A stretch of DNA of 20,110 nucleotides from a virus. The position numbers were made by a program, and so were the translations under genes. Below, piece after piece: positions 3,127 to 16,766 of the stretch. Every line of letters starts with the position of its first letter. Position 1 is the stretch's first letter. Location of the stretch: positions 1 to 20,110 of the IMG/VR virus record IMGVR_UViG_3300028666_000123. One strand, 5' to 3'. A model generated the notes under the pieces. It had not been told where the DNA came from and searched no databases. It was given only the letters and a program-made list of their open reading frames with translations.

Positions 3127-3357
3127 TTATTGGTTGTGTTCTCTAGTTATTTTAGCGTCCCGTTCAAACTTTCTTTCTGACTTACCACTTTTCCAAACTT
3201 CTTTCGTTGTCATCTTGTGGCTTCCTGCTGGGCCATCGTGCTTTTCTCCTTGCAACGCATGACCTGTATACATTTTCTTGTTTCGGTTAAGGTCATAACT
3301 TGCAAGAGCTTTGGTCTGGGAAGTTGGTGCCTTTCGCCCTCCGAGTCTTGTTGCCAT
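3127..3357 (-). CDS. Small basic protein, unknown
   Basis: 76 residues, ATG at 3357, preceded by a good ribosome binding site (AGAGGAAG, seven bases before the ATG), one of the clearest in the window. It is strongly basic and hydrophilic with no hydrophobic core: MATRLGGRKAPTSQTKALAS, ending KFERDAKITREHNQ. It sits in the run of small Lys-rich proteins between portal and scaffold. The composition suggests a disordered, possibly DNA- or RNA-contacting or internal virion protein. Function unknown. Confidence 0.7.
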   Translation of the reverse strand: MATRLGGRKAPTSQTKALASYDLNRNKKMYTGHALQGEKHDGPAGSHKMTTKEVWKSGKSERKFERDAKITREHNQ

Positions 3358-3359
3358 AT

Positions 3360-3536
3360 CTAATCTTCCTCTGAATCGTTATTCTTCGCACCAAACTCTT
3401 TCTTGGGCTTCTTCCCTTTCTCATCCACCTCCTTTCCTTCACTCATGTCCATGTTGCAAACTTCGCACTTCTCGTCTTTTCCTTTTTTGTGTTTGTGCTT
3501 GGCTTTCTTCTCAAGCGCTTTCTCGTGTGATTCCAT
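3360..3536 (-). CDS. Tiny Lys/His/Glu-rich CxxC protein, distant relative of the TPQEKAM group
   Basis: 58 residues, ATG at 3536, TAG at 3362-3360. It starts MESHEKALEKKAKHKHKKGK, has one CxxC (KCEVCNMDM, about residues 23-31) and ends in a charged tail (NNDSEED). The SHEKAL start resembles the TPQEKAM/TPQEKAL motif of the neighbouring small proteins. Junctions are three bases downstream to the next gene and three bases upstream from 3540. Composition suggests disorder, with possible metal binding through CxxC and His. Function unknown. Confidence 0.6.
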   Translation of the reverse strand: MESHEKALEKKAKHKHKKGKDEKCEVCNMDMSEGKEVDEKGKKPKKEFGAKNNDSEED

Positions 3537-3539
3537 GTT

Positions 3540-3716
3540 TTATTCGTTACTTTTAATTTTCTTCTCCTGCCGACCTTTGGCTTTATGCAATGCCTTCTCT
3601 TGAGGAGTCATTAGTGATGTTGCCCATCCATTAACTAAATTTCCTAACTGACTCGATTTTCCTTTCCTTTGAGCGATGTTACTCAAAGGACGATGATTGA
3701 TGTGTTGTTTTGGCAT
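3540..3716 (-). CDS. Small basic protein carrying an internal TPQEKAL motif
   Basis: 58 residues from the ATG at 3716. The motif MTPQEKALHKAKGRQEKK sits at residues 36-53 rather than at the N terminus. The internal ATG at 3611 would give a 23-residue product starting exactly like the neighbouring family members. The DNA around this ATG matches the start of the gene at 4057-4239 over about 20 bases with one change, so a duplicated start fused to a new upstream segment is likely. Which start is used is undecided. Function unknown. Confidence 0.6.
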   Translation of the reverse strand: MPKQHINHRPLSNIAQRKGKSSQLGNLVNGWATSLMTPQEKALHKAKGRQEKKIKSNE

Positions 3717-3719
3717 AAT

Positions 3720-4055
3720 TTATCTGTAATCTTCCCTATAACCTTTCTCATGTTCTGCTTTCTGATTTCTTTGGTGAGCGGCACCGACCCTGCCAGCCCA
3801 GCCAAACATCTTTGAGACATTCCACTTTTCTTTGCTCTTAGTTGCATCCGTAACTGGCGTTTTGTATGACAGTTCTTTTGATTTATCTCTGTTGTGAAAC
3901 GCGGTTTTTTCGTCAATTTTGTACTGTTTGTAACTCTTTCCTTCCACACGAGGAATACCATTGGAATAAAACTTGGCTTTGTACTCTTTGGGATTCTCCT
4001 TCTTGAGAGCACTTTTAACTGTCCAGTGCATTGCGTTCTCCTGTGGGGTGCTCAT
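3720..4055 (-). CDS. TPQEKAM-group small protein (STPQENAM variant)
   Basis: 111 residues from the ATG at 4055 (MSTPQENAMHWTVKSALKKE). I chose this over an in-frame start 18 bases upstream because it places the shared motif at the N terminus and gives the TGATATG junction with the upstream stop that recurs in this genome. The protein is highly charged, Lys/Glu/Tyr-rich (NPKEYKAKFYSNGIPRVEG), with no hydrophobic segment. A Trp/Gly patch (KMFGWAGRVGAAH) lies near residue 85-97. It is the longest member of the group between portal and scaffold. Function unknown; internal virion or assembly factor is a guess. Confidence 0.75.
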   Translation of the reverse strand: MSTPQENAMHWTVKSALKKENPKEYKAKFYSNGIPRVEGKSYKQYKIDEKTAFHNRDKSKELSYKTPVTDATKSKEKWNVSKMFGWAGRVGAAHQRNQKAEHEKGYREDYR

Positions 4056-4056
4056 A

Positions 4057-4239
4057 TCAATCTTTCTTAGCAAGCTCTGCTAATTTCTTCCAGTTCACAT
4101 TCTTTCTTCGTTCGATTCCAAATCCTGCGTCCTTTGCTGACTGCTCGGGAAACTTCAATACCTTTTTTCCTTTCATAACTGTATTTCTGGGAGAGTCGCC
4201 AGTCTTCGTATACTTCATCGCCTTCTCTTGAGGGGTCAT
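4057..4239 (-). CDS. TPQEKAM-group small protein
   Basis: 60 residues beginning MTPQEKAMKYTKTGDSPRN, then basic and helical (NVNWKKLAELAKKD at the end). The ATG overlaps the portal stop as ATGA, and an AGGTG eight bases before it is a possible ribosome binding site. An 18-base stretch coding for QEKAMK is identical to the start of the gene at 6068-6292, which lies on the other side of the portal gene. The shared DNA argues for duplication. Function unknown. Confidence 0.75.
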   Translation of the reverse strand: MTPQEKAMKYTKTGDSPRNTVMKGKKVLKFPEQSAKDAGFGIERRKNVNWKKLAELAKKD

Positions 4240-6065
4240 TTTGGAACACCTAGATTTTTAATAGGAACTTTCGCGAGGGAAGAAGATGCTTCGGGCGCTG
4301 CAAGCGTACTAGGTGGAGGAGTCTGCTGTCGAGGCTGTATTGGGCTTACTTGACCGCCTTGTGGCATACCACCACCTTGTTGTGGCTGTGCGGGCTGTGC
4401 TGCTTCAGGGAAGAAGGTCTGCAAATAAAGCTGCGGATTGGTCGTCCACATGACGAGCATCTTTGCGCTGTTGATTGGATCTGCGTCATCAATCTCTTTC
4501 ATGAAATTAATCGGGTCGATGGCTTTCTGTTCCCATCGTTGAATGGCAAGATTGAGTTGTGAGGACTCGTCTTTCGGCTTCATGCTGTTGGGAGCAACCG
4601 AGACAACAAATTTCCTCTGAAGGTTCTCGGCAGTGAGTTGCACGTATTCCACTGCTGCTGCATTTCCCATCACTGCTGCGAAGTGCGGCTCATCGTAGAA
4701 GACAGCATAGAGCTGCACCCACCAGTTAAAGATATTCTTTGCGGTTACTTCGAGCCGGTCGCCAACTCCACCACCAATACGAGAAGAGTCATGTTCCGTA
4801 TCGAGGATGTTGTTACGTACTGCTTCGTCGGGATTGTTGCTTGGGATGAGGCCAGACGTGCCGTAAATCTGTCGCAGGCTGTTCATGTCACTATCCTGTG
4901 CTTCCATGATCCCATTCGGAAGAGGAGAGGCAGGAATACGTTTCACCGCTTCCATATTGCCGTCAGGAACGAGGAGGAAACCTTCCTCGTAGAAGGTCTG
5001 TACCGCTTGTTCTGCTGTCTCAGACGTGAACGATAGACCAGAGATGGCAACTGCGTTGTTGCCCGACGCGAGGTTCTTTGTTATCTGGTCATCGCGGTCG
5101 GAAATCCTGTCTTGATTCGGTATATTCTGCTCGATGAGGTTCGTGAAGTCGTAAGGTTCCTCTTGGAGAGAAAAGATGGAGAGGAATGTGTACGGTTTCT
5201 TTGGAGTGGCAAAGTGATTGGGCTTCCCTTCTTCGTAGTTGAAAAACTCGTTCTTGTGTTTGTCGAGCACGATGTCTTGGAAGGTGGTGAAGCAGTAGTC
5301 ATCGTTCCACCATTCTGTCGCAACGATTCTCGTGCCCAACTTCTCATTGACCTTGAGCGTGATGTAGTCCTTGTGCTTGGGGAATTTCTCAATAAACCAC
5401 TTAGCTTCTTTCTCGATACGGTCTCCGATGAATCCGTGGAAATCACCGAACTCATCAACGTATCCATCGGGATCGAGCACAAGATTCTGCGGCTTGCGAA
5501 GCTCTGTAGTAATATCACCTGTGTCTTCACCTGTTACAGGGTCAACATGCGGTGCCCATCCATGCTTCACGGCACCGATGAAATACTCTCCCCACTGCCA
5601 CACCATGATGCCGAGCTTCTGTCGCATGCCGAGAACATCAGCATGATACTGCAGCATTGTCTTGAGGTCGTTTGATGCTGCTTTGCCTTCGTCGGTGTTA
5701 TCACTGAACACGACCGGCTCGGGATTTTCTGCGAGTGAAGCGGGAACGAACGTCGCTGTTGCCTCGAAGAGAAGGTTCTTTGAAATGACTCTATCAGCCT
5801 GACCCGTGAAGTTACGCTGTTTGCCTTTGAGGTAGGTTTTGTTTCTCTCCTGACGAGCTTTGACTTTCGGATAGTAACCTGCAGATTTAGATTCCCACTC
5901 TTCTTTGAGAGTAAGGAGTTCTTCGTCAGACATCGGCAACTCAAGCAGGTCTTCGTAGTCTCCTTCAACGCCTTCTTCGACAGACTGTGAGTCCTTCACC
6001 TTGTTGGTGTCGTCGGAGACAACCATTGTTGCCCCGATGATATTCTCTTCAAAAGCGTCGGCCAT
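4236..6065 (-). CDS. Portal protein
   Basis: 609 residues. Portal proteins form the dodecameric ring at one head vertex through which DNA is packaged and ejected. Supporting points: size, place between terminase and capsid genes, an acidic N terminus (about 1-60), a mixed alpha/beta core with conserved-looking segments (LRKPQNLVLDPDGYVDEFGDF about 186-206), a long helical stem-like region (SDRDDQITKNLASGNNAVAIS) and a Pro/Gln/Gly-rich C-terminal tail (QPAQPQQGGGMPQGGQVSP) typical of disordered portal tails. The leader before the ATG reads AAAGAGATAAAT, a weak ribosome binding site. It is flanked on both sides by TPQEKAM-group genes and overlaps the downstream one by four bases. Confidence 0.85.
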   Translation of the reverse strand: MADAFEENIIGATMVVSDDTNKVKDSQSVEEGVEGDYEDLLELPMSDEELLTLKEEWESKSAGYYPKVKARQERNKTYLKGKQRNFTGQADRVISKNLLFEATATFVPASLAENPEPVVFSDNTDEGKAASNDLKTMLQYHADVLGMRQKLGIMVWQWGEYFIGAVKHGWAPHVDPVTGEDTGDITTELRKPQNLVLDPDGYVDEFGDFHGFIGDRIEKEAKWFIEKFPKHKDYITLKVNEKLGTRIVATEWWNDDYCFTTFQDIVLDKHKNEFFNYEEGKPNHFATPKKPYTFLSIFSLQEEPYDFTNLIEQNIPNQDRISDRDDQITKNLASGNNAVAISGLSFTSETAEQAVQTFYEEGFLLVPDGNMEAVKRIPASPLPNGIMEAQDSDMNSLRQIYGTSGLIPSNNPDEAVRNNILDTEHDSSRIGGGVGDRLEVTAKNIFNWWVQLYAVFYDEPHFAAVMGNAAAVEYVQLTAENLQRKFVVSVAPNSMKPKDESSQLNLAIQRWEQKAIDPINFMKEIDDADPINSAKMLVMWTTNPQLYLQTFFPEAAQPAQPQQGGGMPQGGQVSPIQPRQQTPPPSTLAAPEASSSLAKVPIKNLGVPK

Positions 6066-6067
6066 AT

Positions 6068-6292
6068 TTATCTCTTTTCTGCGTCCAGTTTAGCGCGGTG
6101 AGCGTTGACCCTTTCCTTATGTGCCGCTCTGTCTTTTAACATTGATTCCTGATTTCGCTGCCATTCACCCGAAGCCATTTGTTCTTTCTTTCTTTTTTCT
6201 TGATACAAACTCAACTTACTCGGCCCGCTATTGAAGATTGCGTTCATCTTTTTTCCAAAGTCCTTCATCGCCTTCTCTTGTGGTGTAGACAT
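6068..6292 (-). CDS. TPQEKAM-group small protein upstream of portal
   Basis: 74 residues, ATG at 6292. It begins MSTPQEKAMKDFGKKMNAIF and continues as a strongly charged helix (YQEKRKKEQMASGEWQRNQ, ending RVNAHRAKLDAEKR). It ends three bases before the portal start. It is the first gene after the terminator at 6384-6412 and so probably the first gene of the virion operon. Positive charge and helix suggest a nucleic-acid or portal contact, but the function is unknown. Confidence 0.75.
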   Translation of the reverse strand: MSTPQEKAMKDFGKKMNAIFNSGPSKLSLYQEKRKKEQMASGEWQRNQESMLKDRAAHKERVNAHRAKLDAEKR

Positions 6293-6431: not shown

Positions 6432-6647
6432 CTACACCATCAACTTTACATGAGTGAGGGTATCGTTGTCAATTTTCTGTTGTGTGGAATAGGTGTATAA
6501 CTCTATCTTTATTGTTTTTAGTTCTCCCTCATGGAAGTTGAGCGTCGCGTTGCCAGTTTTGATGGCGAAGACGCCCGACTCAGCAAGAAATCGGAGTTTG
6601 GCCGCAATATCAGGCGTAACCTCGATGCTAATCAAATTGGTCAACAT
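6432..6647 (-). CDS. Small protein downstream of the large terminase, unknown
   Basis: 71 residues, ATG at 6647, overlapping the terminase end by 20 bases, with AAGGAT directly before the ATG. Predicted alternating strands (LISIEVTPDIAAKLRFLAES, then ATLNFHEGELKTIKIELYT) suggest a compact alpha/beta fold. It is the last gene before the terminator. Function unknown. Confidence 0.7.
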   Translation of the reverse strand: MLTNLISIEVTPDIAAKLRFLAESGVFAIKTGNATLNFHEGELKTIKIELYTYSTQQKIDNDTLTHVKLMV

Positions 6648-8268
6648 ATCCTTGTATCTTCTTACCTAATACTCTACGAGCAGAAATAGTGTTGTTTTGA
6701 CTGCTGGCCATTGGGAACTTCATCGTATCATTACGCTTGATGAATGAGGCCGAGGCGGTTCCGAATCTGTCGAGACCAACAAGGGCATATAAAAGTGTGT
6801 GAGCGTAATGATCTGCACCGTTACGCTTCCATATCAGCTCTGCCCCGTAGTTCGTCGCTACATCCTTGCCTGGCTTGTCCAACGCAACTTTTATCTCCCT
6901 ATACACGTTATCGAAGTGAGATGCCCAATCAGTCCACTCTTCGACCTTTCCATTGAGTCTGATACGTCCTACATCACGTAGCTGTTCGACCATCCATTGA
7001 AAGTACTGATTGCGGTCTACTCGTACCGTCCCCTGTTCCTCATTCTCGCCCCAATCCACCATCTCCTTGCTCTTGCGGTCTTTGCGATAGAAGACGAGAA
7101 ACACACGCCCGGGATACTGTGCTTGAAGCTTTCTAATACCAATGAGGTCGCCGCCTTGGTCAGCAATGATGATGCTTGTAGTCCAACGCTTCAACAGCTT
7201 CTCAAGGTCGTCGTAGTTGAGCGTGGTGCCGTAATAGAACGCTCCTTGTTTGTTCATGCAGGTGTAGTGGATAGGAAGGCCGGTATCTACTCCGATGATG
7301 ATTCTATCAGCCTGTTCGTTCACTTCGGGGACGACGTTCTTGAGGACAACAGAAGAGGGGATTTTGTTCTCTGAACCGACATAGGGAAGGCCAAGGACGT
7401 AGTTGTAGAAGTATTGCTCGTTCTTCTTTGGGTCGTCCTTGGCATCGAGGATAGCTCTCGCTGTTATCCAAGCACACATGAGTTGGGAGACATGATAGCC
7501 AGAGAATCTCCCTACCGCCGTTGCTTTCCACTCACCTCTGCGGCGCACATCATCCGACAATTCCTGTTTGCAATACTTACACTGGTAGCACTCCCTAATG
7601 CGGTCAATGGAATCAGGCCATGAGAGGATTTGTCGCTTTCCACACGGGCAGGTGATAATCCACTCCTTCTTGTCGCTCTGTTGCCAGTACACATCCACTC
7701 CATGTCCCGCGACACTAGGATGCGAGAAGTACCATCGCCATCCTCCCACTTGGCCTTGCAAGCGTGTTTCGTATTGTGTAATGACATCAGAATTCGAGGC
7801 ATCCACTTCGTCATGAATATTGCATTGTGAAGAAACCATCATCGCCTGTTTCTGTGTGTACGTTCCGCGATAGTGAATGATGTTATCGCCCACAGATTTC
7901 TGCTCGATTGAATCGTGGTCTTTGACCCATGACATGAGGATAGGATTCTGAGCGATGATGCGGTTCACTTTGCCCCCGCCCATGTCGTACACATCATCTT
8001 GCGTTGGCAACGTATAGATAATGTCTTTGTGCAACATCTTCGCTACATGGAATGATTTGATGATTTCAGTTTCCGTCGCGCCTACCTGCGGAGCTTTCAA
8101 CATAACCTGAAGGGGACTCGTGTCGTTCAAGAACTCCCACATGAATCCTCTATCTCCTTCAAAATCAAACGGCAAACCTGATGAGGTTTTCATCTGATGC
8201 TTCTTGACCCACTCGCTTGGGATGTATTCTCTAAGCCGCTGATATGTTTGCTCGATGGTTTCTTGCAT
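6628..8268 (-). CDS. terL: Terminase large subunit (GpA-like ATPase/nuclease)
   Basis: 546 residues. This is the packaging motor that docks on the portal, pumps DNA using ATP and cuts concatemers. A Walker A-like segment lies at 57-66 (LKAPQVGATE, the GpA-type form without a classic GKS/T). A Walker B-like IHDEVD is at 151-156. A Cys cluster of zinc-finger type (C207, C209, C227, C230, C233) is inserted before the nuclease, as in lambda GpA-family terminases. The RNase H-like nuclease shows IIIGVDTG (D328), IIIADQGG (D370) and GADHYAH (D486, H487). The length is a little short of lambda GpA. The start overlaps the small terminase by 38 bases, with AAAGGA close before the ATG. Confidence 0.92.
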   Translation of the reverse strand: MQETIEQTYQRLREYIPSEWVKKHQMKTSSGLPFDFEGDRGFMWEFLNDTSPLQVMLKAPQVGATETEIIKSFHVAKMLHKDIIYTLPTQDDVYDMGGGKVNRIIAQNPILMSWVKDHDSIEQKSVGDNIIHYRGTYTQKQAMMVSSQCNIHDEVDASNSDVITQYETRLQGQVGGWRWYFSHPSVAGHGVDVYWQQSDKKEWIITCPCGKRQILSWPDSIDRIRECYQCKYCKQELSDDVRRRGEWKATAVGRFSGYHVSQLMCAWITARAILDAKDDPKKNEQYFYNYVLGLPYVGSENKIPSSVVLKNVVPEVNEQADRIIIGVDTGLPIHYTCMNKQGAFYYGTTLNYDDLEKLLKRWTTSIIIADQGGDLIGIRKLQAQYPGRVFLVFYRKDRKSKEMVDWGENEEQGTVRVDRNQYFQWMVEQLRDVGRIRLNGKVEEWTDWASHFDNVYREIKVALDKPGKDVATNYGAELIWKRNGADHYAHTLLYALVGLDRFGTASASFIKRNDTMKFPMASSQNNTISARRVLGKKIQGYVDQFD

Positions 8269-11710: not shown

Positions 11711-11962
11711 TTAATCTTCAATCTTGGCGAGGAGAAACTCCCCCGATTCCCTTACGAAATAATACTTCTGTTCGTCAATGACGAGTTTTTCAACTCCGAA
11801 TACACTGAATCCCACGCGGTCGCCCACTTTTATGTGCAAAACTTCCGGCCCGATTGCTATGACTTCTCCGTACTCGTTGAGTGTTCCATCATCGCTCACA
11901 AGCACCTGTTGTTTTTCTACAGGCTTGATGAGCAAATAGTTAAACAAAGGCGATACTTTCAT
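11711..11962 (-). CDS. groES: GroES-like co-chaperonin without roof hairpin
   Basis: 83 residues, against 97 in E. coli. The co-chaperonin caps the GroEL ring to close the folding cage. The N-terminal strand (VSPLFNYLLIKPVEK) matches the GroES start (IRPLHDRVIVKRKE). YGEVIAIG, VKVGD-type IKVGDRVGFSVFGVEKLVID and the C-terminal strand FLLAKIED match the rest of the beta barrel. The mobile loop (about residues 15-31, with VLV as the hydrophobic tripeptide) is about six residues shorter than in E. coli. The roof hairpin is absent: GP-EVLH-IKVGD replaces the longer E. coli loop. T4 gp31 also lacks this roof. The start overlaps the upstream stop as ATGA. It is not next to groEL but is in the same operon, two to three genes away. 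Confidence 0.88.
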   Translation of the reverse strand: MKVSPLFNYLLIKPVEKQQVLVSDDGTLNEYGEVIAIGPEVLHIKVGDRVGFSVFGVEKLVIDEQKYYFVRESGEFLLAKIED

Positions 11963-15231: not shown

Positions 15232-15261
15232 ATTATACAATATCGTGTCCAGTGTCGTCAG
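15232..15261 (-). promoter_or_regulatory. Promoter of the 86-residue gene
   Basis: The -10 TATAAT lies at 15237-15232, eight bases before the ATG, predicting an almost leaderless mRNA. A weak -35 CTGACG (15261-15256) lies 18 bases upstream and falls inside the right arm of the inverted repeat, so a protein bound to that arm would affect this promoter. Confidence 0.5.
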
Positions 15262-15284
15262 GGGATAGGCGTTAAGTTATGCAC
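15253..15284 (-). repeat. Right arm of the 32-bp inverted repeat, with DnaA-box match
   Basis: Partner of 14939-14970 (28 of 32 identical in inverted orientation). The end reads TTATGCAC and with the next base gives TTATGCACA (15277-15285), fitting the general DnaA box TTATNCACA. The left arm has TTATGCACT, one change off. Confidence 0.85.
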
Positions 15285-15336
15285 ACCCAATCCCCTTCCC
15301 TGTCATGGATGAGGGTGGAATGAAGTGATATTATTC

Positions 15337-15369
15337 TTGTATGACTTTGTGCAGTCTCGTAATTATAAA
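15337..15369 (+). promoter_or_regulatory. Possible rightward promoter
   Basis: TTGTAT at 15337-15342 and TAATTA at 15360-15365 are 17 bases apart; TATAAA at 15364-15369 overlaps. The predicted start lies at about 15371, directly at the first base of the terminator-like hairpin. Match to consensus is moderate. Confidence 0.35.
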
Positions 15370-15370
15370 T

Positions 15371-15408
15371 GGCGGCTTCCTTTGCACAAAGGGGGAGCTG
15401 CCGTTTTT
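15371..15408 (+). terminator. Terminator/attenuator hairpin before the replication gene
   Basis: GGCGGCT (15371-15377) pairs with AGCTGCC (15396-15402) with one G-U pair, with CC/GG and TTTG/CAAA continuing inside. It is followed by GTTTTTG. It lies between a promoter-like sequence and the gene at 15420, so it looks like an attenuator. ATG GCG ... TGA spanning 15369-15410 would code a 13-residue leader peptide. Confidence 0.6.
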
Positions 15409-15419
15409 GATTATGAGGT

Positions 15420-15722
15420 ATGCAATGGTTTAAGTTTTACGGGGCTGATTATTTAATTGACCCGAAGATGTCCGAGTTGAGTTCCGGCGAGCGCGTTTGT
15501 TGGATAACGCTACTCTGTTTCGCCGGTGCCTCGGAGAATAGTGGAAAAATCACTCATGTATCCGAGACTCATCTTTTACGGCAGTCCGGCATTAAAGAAA
15601 ACTCCGCCGAGTGGAAAGATACTACTGGAGTTCTGAAGAAGTTCTTGAAGTTGGGAATGATAACGCATGATAACGGAAAGAGAGAGAGAGAAGAGAGAGA
15701 GAGAAAGAAGAGAAGTTTCTAA
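15420..15722 (+). CDS. Replication-initiator-like N-terminal domain, frameshifted
   Basis: 100 residues before a TAA. Residues 1-85 (MQWFKFYGADYLIDPKMSEL, WITLLCFAGASENSGKITHV, LLRQSGI, VLKKFLKLGMITHDN) are typical of the winged-helix N-terminal domain of phage replisome-organiser proteins that load helicase at the origin. After DNG the frame enters a pure purine tract and ends abruptly at KREREERERKKRSF. In the +1 frame the reading continues past the stop, giving GMQRIAEFVKTLPPSKKII, and ends exactly at the ATGA of the methyltransferase gene. The gene is therefore frameshifted or length-variable, and the usual central part of such proteins is missing. A GAGGT directly precedes the ATG. Confidence 0.65.
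   Translation: MQWFKFYGADYLIDPKMSELSSGERVCWITLLCFAGASENSGKITHVSETHLLRQSGIKENSAEWKDTTGVLKKFLKLGMITHDNGKREREERERKKRSF
15675..15715 (+). repeat. Purine (AG)n microsatellite in the replication gene
   Basis: 41 bases of A and G only, including two (AG)6 blocks (15679-15690 and 15692-15703) split by one A. It sits where the reading frame of 15420-15722 breaks. Gain of one AG unit would join the frames. Confidence 0.9.
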
Positions 15723-15791
15723 AGAAACGGGGAAAGGGATGCAGCGAATAGCAGAGTTCGTAAAAACATTACCACCTTCAAAGAAAATTAT

Positions 15792-16424
15792 ATGAGTGAA
15801 CAGATAATCATAGAGGGCGACTGTCTCCAAGTTATGCGCGGCTTCGCTGATAAGTCGTTTGATTTGTGCCTCACTGACCCTCCCTACGGTATCAAAGCTG
15901 ATTCGGGCGTAGGTGGATTTGGTTCGAGCGATACGAGCAAACACTACAAAGATGACTGGGACGCTTATACCCCCCCCAGAGAGGTTTTTGATGAGATTTT
16001 GCGCGTGTCTAAGAGTGTTGTTATTTTTGGCGGACAATTTTTCACAGATAAACTTCCCCCTAACGGACATTGGATTGTGTGGGACAAAAAAGGAGGCATA
16101 TCTTTTGATAATCCTTTTGGTGATTGTGAGCTTGCGTGGACGAATATCAACCGTAAATCGGTCAAGAAGTATACCTGTATCCAACAGGGATTCGTAGCAG
16201 AGGAGCGCGATAGGTGGCATCCTACACAAAAGCCTGTAAAGTTGTTCGGCGAGATTATTCGCGACTACACGGAAGAGGGCGCAACAATCCTTGACCCGTT
16301 TGCTGGTAGCGGAACGACAGGACTTGCCGCGAAGTATCTAAATCGCCCATACACCCTCATAGAAATTTCCCCCAAATACATCGAAATCGCCCGCAAGAGA
16401 TTAAGTCAAGACATGCTGTTTTGA
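15792..16424 (+). CDS. DNA adenine/cytosine-N4 methyltransferase (beta-class order), solitary
   Basis: 210 residues, complete. Catalytic DPPY at 29-32; HPTQKP at 143-148; SAM-binding FAGSGTT at 170-176 followed by IEISPKYIEIARKRL. The catalytic motif comes before the SAM motif, the order of the beta class of amino-methyltransferases (N6-adenine or N4-cytosine). The stretch between (about 40-140), including the variable DTSKHYKDDWDAYT region, would recognise the target. No restriction enzyme gene is near, so it is an orphan phage enzyme that may protect phage DNA from host restriction or mark it for regulation. Its ATG overlaps the end of the frameshifted replication gene as ATGA in the +1 frame. 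Confidence 0.93.
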   Translation: MSEQIIIEGDCLQVMRGFADKSFDLCLTDPPYGIKADSGVGGFGSSDTSKHYKDDWDAYTPPREVFDEILRVSKSVVIFGGQFFTDKLPPNGHWIVWDKKGGISFDNPFGDCELAWTNINRKSVKKYTCIQQGFVAEERDRWHPTQKPVKLFGEIIRDYTEEGATILDPFAGSGTTGLAAKYLNRPYTLIEISPKYIEIARKRLSQDMLF

Positions 16425-16518
16425 GAGGATAGGGCTAGAGGGAGGAGAGTTCCTGTTTCAGTGCGATTATTTCTATCTTCCAGAAAACACCTTGATAACC
16501 CCTATCACCCCTTCAGTG

Positions 16519-16537
16519 AAGGCAACAGGTGCCTTTT
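16519..16537 (+). terminator. Terminator after the methyltransferase
   Basis: AAGGCA (16519-16524) and TGCCTT (16530-16535) form a perfect 6-bp stem around ACAGG, followed by TT. Outer GTGA/TCAC can also pair. It lies in the gap between the convergent genes 15792-16424 and 16539-16766. The short stem and U-tract make it moderate. Confidence 0.45.
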
Positions 16538-16538
16538 C

Positions 16539-16766
16539 TCACAGGTATTTCAAGTGTTGTTTGAGGAAATCAATGGTTTCAGCTGCTCGACAGCTCTGAC
16601 AACGAGCGTCTATCCAATATTCGTAGTCTTTCGGGGTCTTGCAGTGGAATAGATCTTTGTGGTCTTCATAGTCTTTCGTTTTGCAATTCCCTCCCCATCC
16701 CTTTTTAAGATAGCGGATCGTCGCTCTTACCGCAGCTCTTTCAGGAGTGTGTTTATCTATTTTCAT
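16539..16766 (-). CDS. Small Cys-containing protein after the NinG-like gene
   Basis: 75 residues from the ATG at 16766, which overlaps the NinG-like stop as ATGA. It begins MKIDKHTPERAAVRATIRYL, has KKGWGGNCKTKDYEDHKDLF and HCKTPKDYEYWIDARCQSC with a terminal helix (AAETIDFLKQHLKYL). Four Cys and two His could hold zinc. Last gene of its operon. Function unknown. Confidence 0.7.
   Translation of the reverse strand: MKIDKHTPERAAVRATIRYLKKGWGGNCKTKDYEDHKDLFHCKTPKDYEYWIDARCQSCRAAETIDFLKQHLKYL

Follow-up and report, generated by a model that had tools for sequence, protein, structure and literature searches.

The window analysed here comprises the 20,110 nucleotides at positions 1–20,110 of the IMG/VR virus record IMGVR_UViG_3300028666_000123, and its minus strand encodes, in this order, GroES, GroEL, the terminase large subunit, a small gene at 6068–6292, the portal protein, a cluster of small genes at 3127–4239, a scaffold-like protein and the major capsid protein. 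The phage GroEL (9585–11138; PHROG 5725, E 4e-91; PF00118), the terminase large subunit (6628–8268; PHROG 675, E 2e-74; PF05876) and the major capsid protein (963–1991; PHROG 9953, E 1e-31) were recognised by their family matches, and the GroES-like protein (11711–11962) has homologues in relatives that adjoin GroEL. The 609-residue product of 4236–6065 shares 24% identity with the annotated portal of MW202566, with synteny in more than 100 loci, and as the gene order is the same in relatives, the placing of a family of small motif-bearing proteins around the portal gene in a preliminary description of this DNA holds. The protein encoded at 2016–2789 was assigned as scaffold-like on position and conservation; it is acidic, coiled-coil-like and carries a C-terminal RAKELASRxMxRSG. 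A further small gene between terminase and portal (6432–6647, ...FAIKTGNATLNFHEGELKTIK...), conserved in many relatives, is free of the motif described below.

All five ORFs in which that description had reported TPQEKAM, TPQENAM, TPQEKAL or SHEKAL are open on the minus strand. The 74-residue protein of 6068–6292, between terminase and portal, starts MSTPQEKAM (tag TPQEKAMK, 6263–6286), and the 60-residue protein of 4057–4239, whose gene overlaps the portal stop, starts MTPQEKAM with the same tag at 4213–4236. The 111-residue protein of 3720–4055 starts MSTPQENAM (tag TPQENAMH, 4026–4049) and has orthologues in relatives L030 and L056 (MSTSQEHALKF...) and L054 (MSTPQENALNG...). In the 58-residue protein of 3540–3716 the tag (...MTPQEKALHKAK, residues 36–47; TPQEKALH, 3585–3608) is internal, or N-terminal if the true start is the ATG at codon 36. 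The protein of 3360–3536, also of 58 residues, starts MESHEKALEKK and continues with a CEVC knuckle-like motif and an acidic tail; its tag, SHEKALEK (3507–3530), scored 16.1 against a profile from which its own clade had been left out, and KAL is invariant throughout its six orthologues among relatives. AlphaFold gave only a low-confidence model for this family (pLDDT 55), in which a short helix covers the tag. Lastly, TSQTKALAS near residue 13 of the small basic 76-residue protein of 3127–3357 is probably a sixth copy, overlooked in the preliminary description; it is divergent and alone not significant.

A 7-mer with at most one mismatch is common to four of the six small window proteins, whereas shuffles of the same proteins shared it between two at most (100 trials). 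In a repeat search the DNA that encodes the tag came out as a single dispersed repeat of 24 nt, present four times (the TPQEKAMK, TPQENAMH and TPQEKALH tags), its copies 75–92% alike and confined to the tag, and the 18-base identity noted earlier between the ends at 6292 and 4239 is present. Searches of the window's small proteins against Pfam and PHROGs returned no family, and the strict regular expression [ST]PxExA[ML] found no match beyond the window; it was reading of the ORFs around relatives' portals that revealed how the motif drifts.

Relatives were collected from IMG/VR by portal and capsid searches (28, 26 and 80 loci), and removal of portals at least 90% identical left a set of 85 phages, which belong to a large, uncultured group of tailed phages. 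Two more scans supplied 50 further non-redundant phages, which were held out while the profile was frozen. In relatives the genes for terminase, portal, the small proteins, scaffold and capsid follow one another in this same order. The nearest annotated phages, MW202566 and TM7 phage DolZOral124_53_65, are only 24–28% identical in portal and coat; they have homologous portal, coat protein and GroEL but no tagged cluster. In the TM7 phage record MG269973 (the record behind L118) a GroEL-like ORF lies at 15237–16595 (E 5e-32 to the window GroEL, translated search). From this phage we would guess at a host among the Patescibacteria. A search of GTDB genomes with the portal, made to find the host, yielded no related portal, and a search with the coat protein yielded only two small contigs, one in a Hydrogenedentes MAG and one in another metagenome bin, which may be mis-binned phage contigs.

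In these phages the tag takes the ten-residue consensus [AS]-K-[ST]-K-A-L-x-K-K-K, of which the TPQEKAM and SHEKAL of the preliminary description are one lineage's version and not the general motif; in the lineage of the window the tag reads TPQEKA[ML]K or SHEKALEK. Motif discovery, allowing zero or one copy per sequence and seeded with random 11-mers from the same proteins, recovered a 15-bit motif from ~71% of 311 small portal-scaffold ORFs of the 85 phages, with a log-likelihood of 1269 as against 225–245 for four shuffled sets, and MAFFT aligned 95 mutually unrelated representatives on the tag. With profiles built without the clade under test, 171 of the 311 portal-scaffold ORFs outscored their own shuffled versions (p <= 0.01), compared to 8 of the 106 small ORFs in the terminase-portal interval. 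Only the ten residues are conserved, most strongly Ala (97%) and Leu (90%), with the flanks near background, and proline is absent from residues 3–11 in 194 aligned 11-mers. In one well-modelled tagged family (MPKFLEEKLKKEYG..., 10 members; mean pLDDT 85) the tag lies within a helix, and the tag is predicted to form a short helix that is amphipathic and basic. Across IMG/VR an exact DNA pattern for AK[ST]KAL[EK]KK had seven matches, three in the clade (L122, L124 and L125) and four not recognisably related, and a search of the open-licence literature for a description of such a tag found none. Copying of the tag from a coat or terminase segment was rejected, there being no such segment; scaffold and portal show weak, modest resemblances to it, each in a single column (A...AL in the scaffold), which may be due to chance. 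The scaffold C-terminus of the window protein and its relatives is itself strongly conserved (RAKELASRSMxRSG) and faintly tag-like, and is a candidate coat-binding element.

The distribution of the tag along the genome is strongly biased. At a score of 10 or more it was found in 106 of 224 small portal-scaffold ORFs (47%), whereas the terminase-portal interval had it in 6 of 96 small ORFs and the regions elsewhere in 4 of 527 (<1%), the enrichment of the portal-scaffold interval over elsewhere having an odds ratio of 117 (Fisher p ~1e-59); ORFs were called mechanically and alike in all regions, and the fractions depend on ORF choice. In the 50 held-out phages the tag was present in 64 of 122 small portal-scaffold ORFs and in 6 of 367 from other regions (odds ratio 66, p ~1e-38), with 1 of 122 after shuffling, and for held-out phages with portals 30–65% identical to the first set the counts were 20 of 45, 3 of 192 others and 1 shuffled. 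The preliminary description would have been refuted by a lack of further occurrences near phage head genes or by an origin of the motif in just one recent local duplication; neither applies, as the motif recurs in the 85 and the 50 non-redundant phages nearly always beside the portal. In seven near-full-length contigs strong matches fell nearly all within the portal-scaffold block, the exception being a 530-residue protein encoded downstream of the capsid gene. In L259, a contig from a genome collection, tagged proteins adjoin the portal; this contig also has a lineage-specific, tag-like form, KSKEKSLKKAE and PHKEKALKKAE, before the terminase and between terminase and portal (520–735 and 2478–2723). 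The general profile found no tag in 7 of 67 phages with a complete interval, in some of which close variants are seen by eye (e.g. MSLDKALKNK in L110), and in about a dozen held-out phages (L184–L207), ~40% identical to the reference set, small genes are scarce or absent in the interval and the tag is lacking. Untagged portal-scaffold proteins, for example in L021 and L059, include acidic ones, ones with a zinc-like CxxCxGxG and beta-rich ones with an N-terminal hydrophobic stretch.

At a score of at least 7 the census of carriers comprised 194 tagged proteins from 71 phages, in 119 body families of which 98 are singletons. The proteins are small (median 64.5 residues) and mostly basic, with a median net charge of +9 and 4% of them net negative, and usually carry one copy of the tag. 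In 51 it lies no more than six residues from the N-terminus, in 52 no more than six from the C-terminus, and in 91 it is internal. A short tag common to variable, basic, soluble bodies near head genes, as had been described for the window, is therefore borne out across related phages, yet it is not the N-terminal feature it was taken for: it stands at the protein start in only four of the window's genes, and in relatives it is found at either end or inside. A single duplication-derived family is ruled out by the 119 body families, the 98 singletons and the untagged homologues outside the clade. DUF6496 (PF20106) was matched in only 2 of 95 representatives, with the tag after the domain in those inspected. 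Both DUF6496 and the small proteins of the MPLTKKGKKI...VFYASKNKG type include some tagged bodies, whereas the members examined outside the clade end untagged: the DUF6496 proteins of three other phages end without the tag that is appended to the versions found here, and so does the MPLTKKGKKI protein of HMO-2011, HTVC033P and MW202711, to which the clade versions append it. In MW202711 there is also, judged by eye, an untagged relative of L057's tagged protein MTSHNKALERF... As these outside homologues end without it, the tag is an add-on.

Tags of unrelated proteins within one genome are alike (similarity 14.6), whereas those of different clades are less so (9.9), and none of 2000 permutations reached the observed value. 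Since tags of the same clade in another genome are equally alike (15.6), the unit of variation is the lineage. Concerted variation is seen for instance in L178 (KEIAI, KEQAM, KEEAI) and in L083 (SAISKAI, SPISKAI), and a tag resembles the unrelated tags of its own genome (15.5) more than those of its homologues in other clades (13.4; p 0.02), both of which would be predicted if each phage had one partner for the tag. Where tag residues agree within a genome, the same codon is used at a frequency of 0.418, compared to 0.417 expected from codon usage; agreement at that level argues that the tag is kept by protein selection rather than by recent copying, and as synonymous sites are as different as codon usage predicts, most tags are old. 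The duplication considered likely in the preliminary description thus applies to the window, whose copies look recently copied, and not to most tags; the 75–92% alike tag DNA of the window suggests that tag copying is still ongoing. Judged from sequence, it is close to certain that the tag is a modular feature varying in concert within lineages.

The docking or sorting signal proposed earlier is the best reading of the tag, supported by its recurrence beside the portal in the 85 and 50 phages. Its presence on many unrelated proteins, its confinement to the head block and its concerted drift point to one docking partner per phage, and the head-assembly gene block indicates procapsid assembly. 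Together with the analogous signals of phages T4 and P1, this leads us to consider it reasonably likely, though far from assured, that the tag serves as a position-independent head-loading, or capsid-targeting, signal for small basic internal proteins.

In T4 the internal proteins (IPI-III, Alt) carry a capsid-targeting sequence (CTS), a short tag on diverse head-associated proteins whose bodies vary between related phages (PMC3012670, PMC5694885). The likeness is that of a short tag common to otherwise divergent small proteins of one phage, as in the 194 proteins and 119 families found here. The CTS is, however, an N-terminal propeptide cleaved off by the prohead protease gp21, whereas the present tag is N-terminal, internal or C-terminal and not evidently cleaved, and the T4 genome is of ~170 kb as compared to ~40 kb for these phages. 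No protease of the Peptidase_S78 type (PF04586) was detected in the 21 records searched; the search with PF03420 (gp21 family) gave no match anywhere, controls included. In P1, DarB carries an N-terminal packaging signal that suffices to direct cargo to the head interior (PMC9024508), a role like the one proposed for the tag; the P1 signal, however, comprises 30 residues at the N-terminus of a single large protein, as against a 10-residue tag on many small proteins here.

An alternative that we regard as unlikely is that the tagged proteins are assembly co-factors, which would bind portal, coat or scaffold outside the head or during assembly and be absent from the virion. Their genes do lie beside portal and scaffold, and tag similarity follows the distances of scaffold and portal slightly more than those of coat or terminase (Spearman 0.19, 0.18, 0.13 and 0.07, respectively; all weak, and in this mirror-tree test too weak to name the partner), but such numerous, fast-changing orphan bodies resemble replaceable cargo more than assembly factors. 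Quite improbable, in our view, is a nucleic-acid-binding element that contacts DNA rather than protein and would make the carriers DNA-condensing, histone-like factors. Tag and bodies are Lys-rich, in keeping with the median net charge of +9, and for that reason a general electrostatic role is possible; nevertheless, the most conserved tag positions are Ala and Leu (97% and 90%) and not Lys, shuffled proteins of the same composition lack the tag, and a usually single copy varying in concert by lineage fits a specific protein partner better than DNA.

Docking to the phage's own GroEL or GroES, with the small proteins as chaperonin clients or co-factors, seems to us very improbable. GroEL was found upstream of the terminase, in the same gene block as the tagged genes, wherever a locus extended far enough in that direction (30 loci), and likewise in each of the 21 longer records searched, two outgroup phages included, with GroES in many; yet GroEL is also present in the tagless relatives MW202566 and the TM7 phage, and the tagged genes cluster with portal and scaffold rather than with groEL. 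To our knowledge, client signals for GroEL are not typically basic, mostly hydrophilic helices, which further counts against this reading. That the tag has no common function and stems from recent local duplication, or is a helix-cap motif (TPxEKA) recurring by chance, is hardly credible despite the window's 24-nt repeat, as the general motif recurs in the sets of 85 and 50 phages with enrichment in one interval (odds ratios 117 and 66), its synonymous sites are as different as codon usage allows and its conservation does not extend beyond the tag. The held-out test refutes this reading for the entire clade, whereas recent copying inside the window stands.

If the tag is a head-loading signal, small basic proteins encoded between portal and scaffold, usually with one tag anywhere along the chain, would dock through it onto one common partner during procapsid assembly, most likely the scaffold core, the coat interior or the portal. 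The docked proteins would be enclosed with the DNA inside the head and would probably leave the virion along with it at ejection. Their bodies would turn over fast, and new small ORFs would join through gaining a copy of the tag. It is conceivable, and here we are tentative, that a plug-in loading peptide, free in its position, allows small phages of ~40 kb to maintain a quickly changing repertoire of tiny ejected proteins, which might act in counter-defence or early take-over, that new genes join this set by the copying of a 24–30 nt tag onto almost any short ORF, and that the tag co-evolves with one docking site per lineage.

Head-loading tags have so far been described for few phages, such as T4 and P1. 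If the proposal is correct, a position-independent tag on nearly 200 proteins would provide a sequence rule by which packaged proteins could be found in uncultured phages, and the tagged proteins would be a ready candidate set of ejected effectors. Small capsids might likewise be loaded with cargo by using the tag as a minimal peptide, and it would offer a view of how new small genes are recruited.
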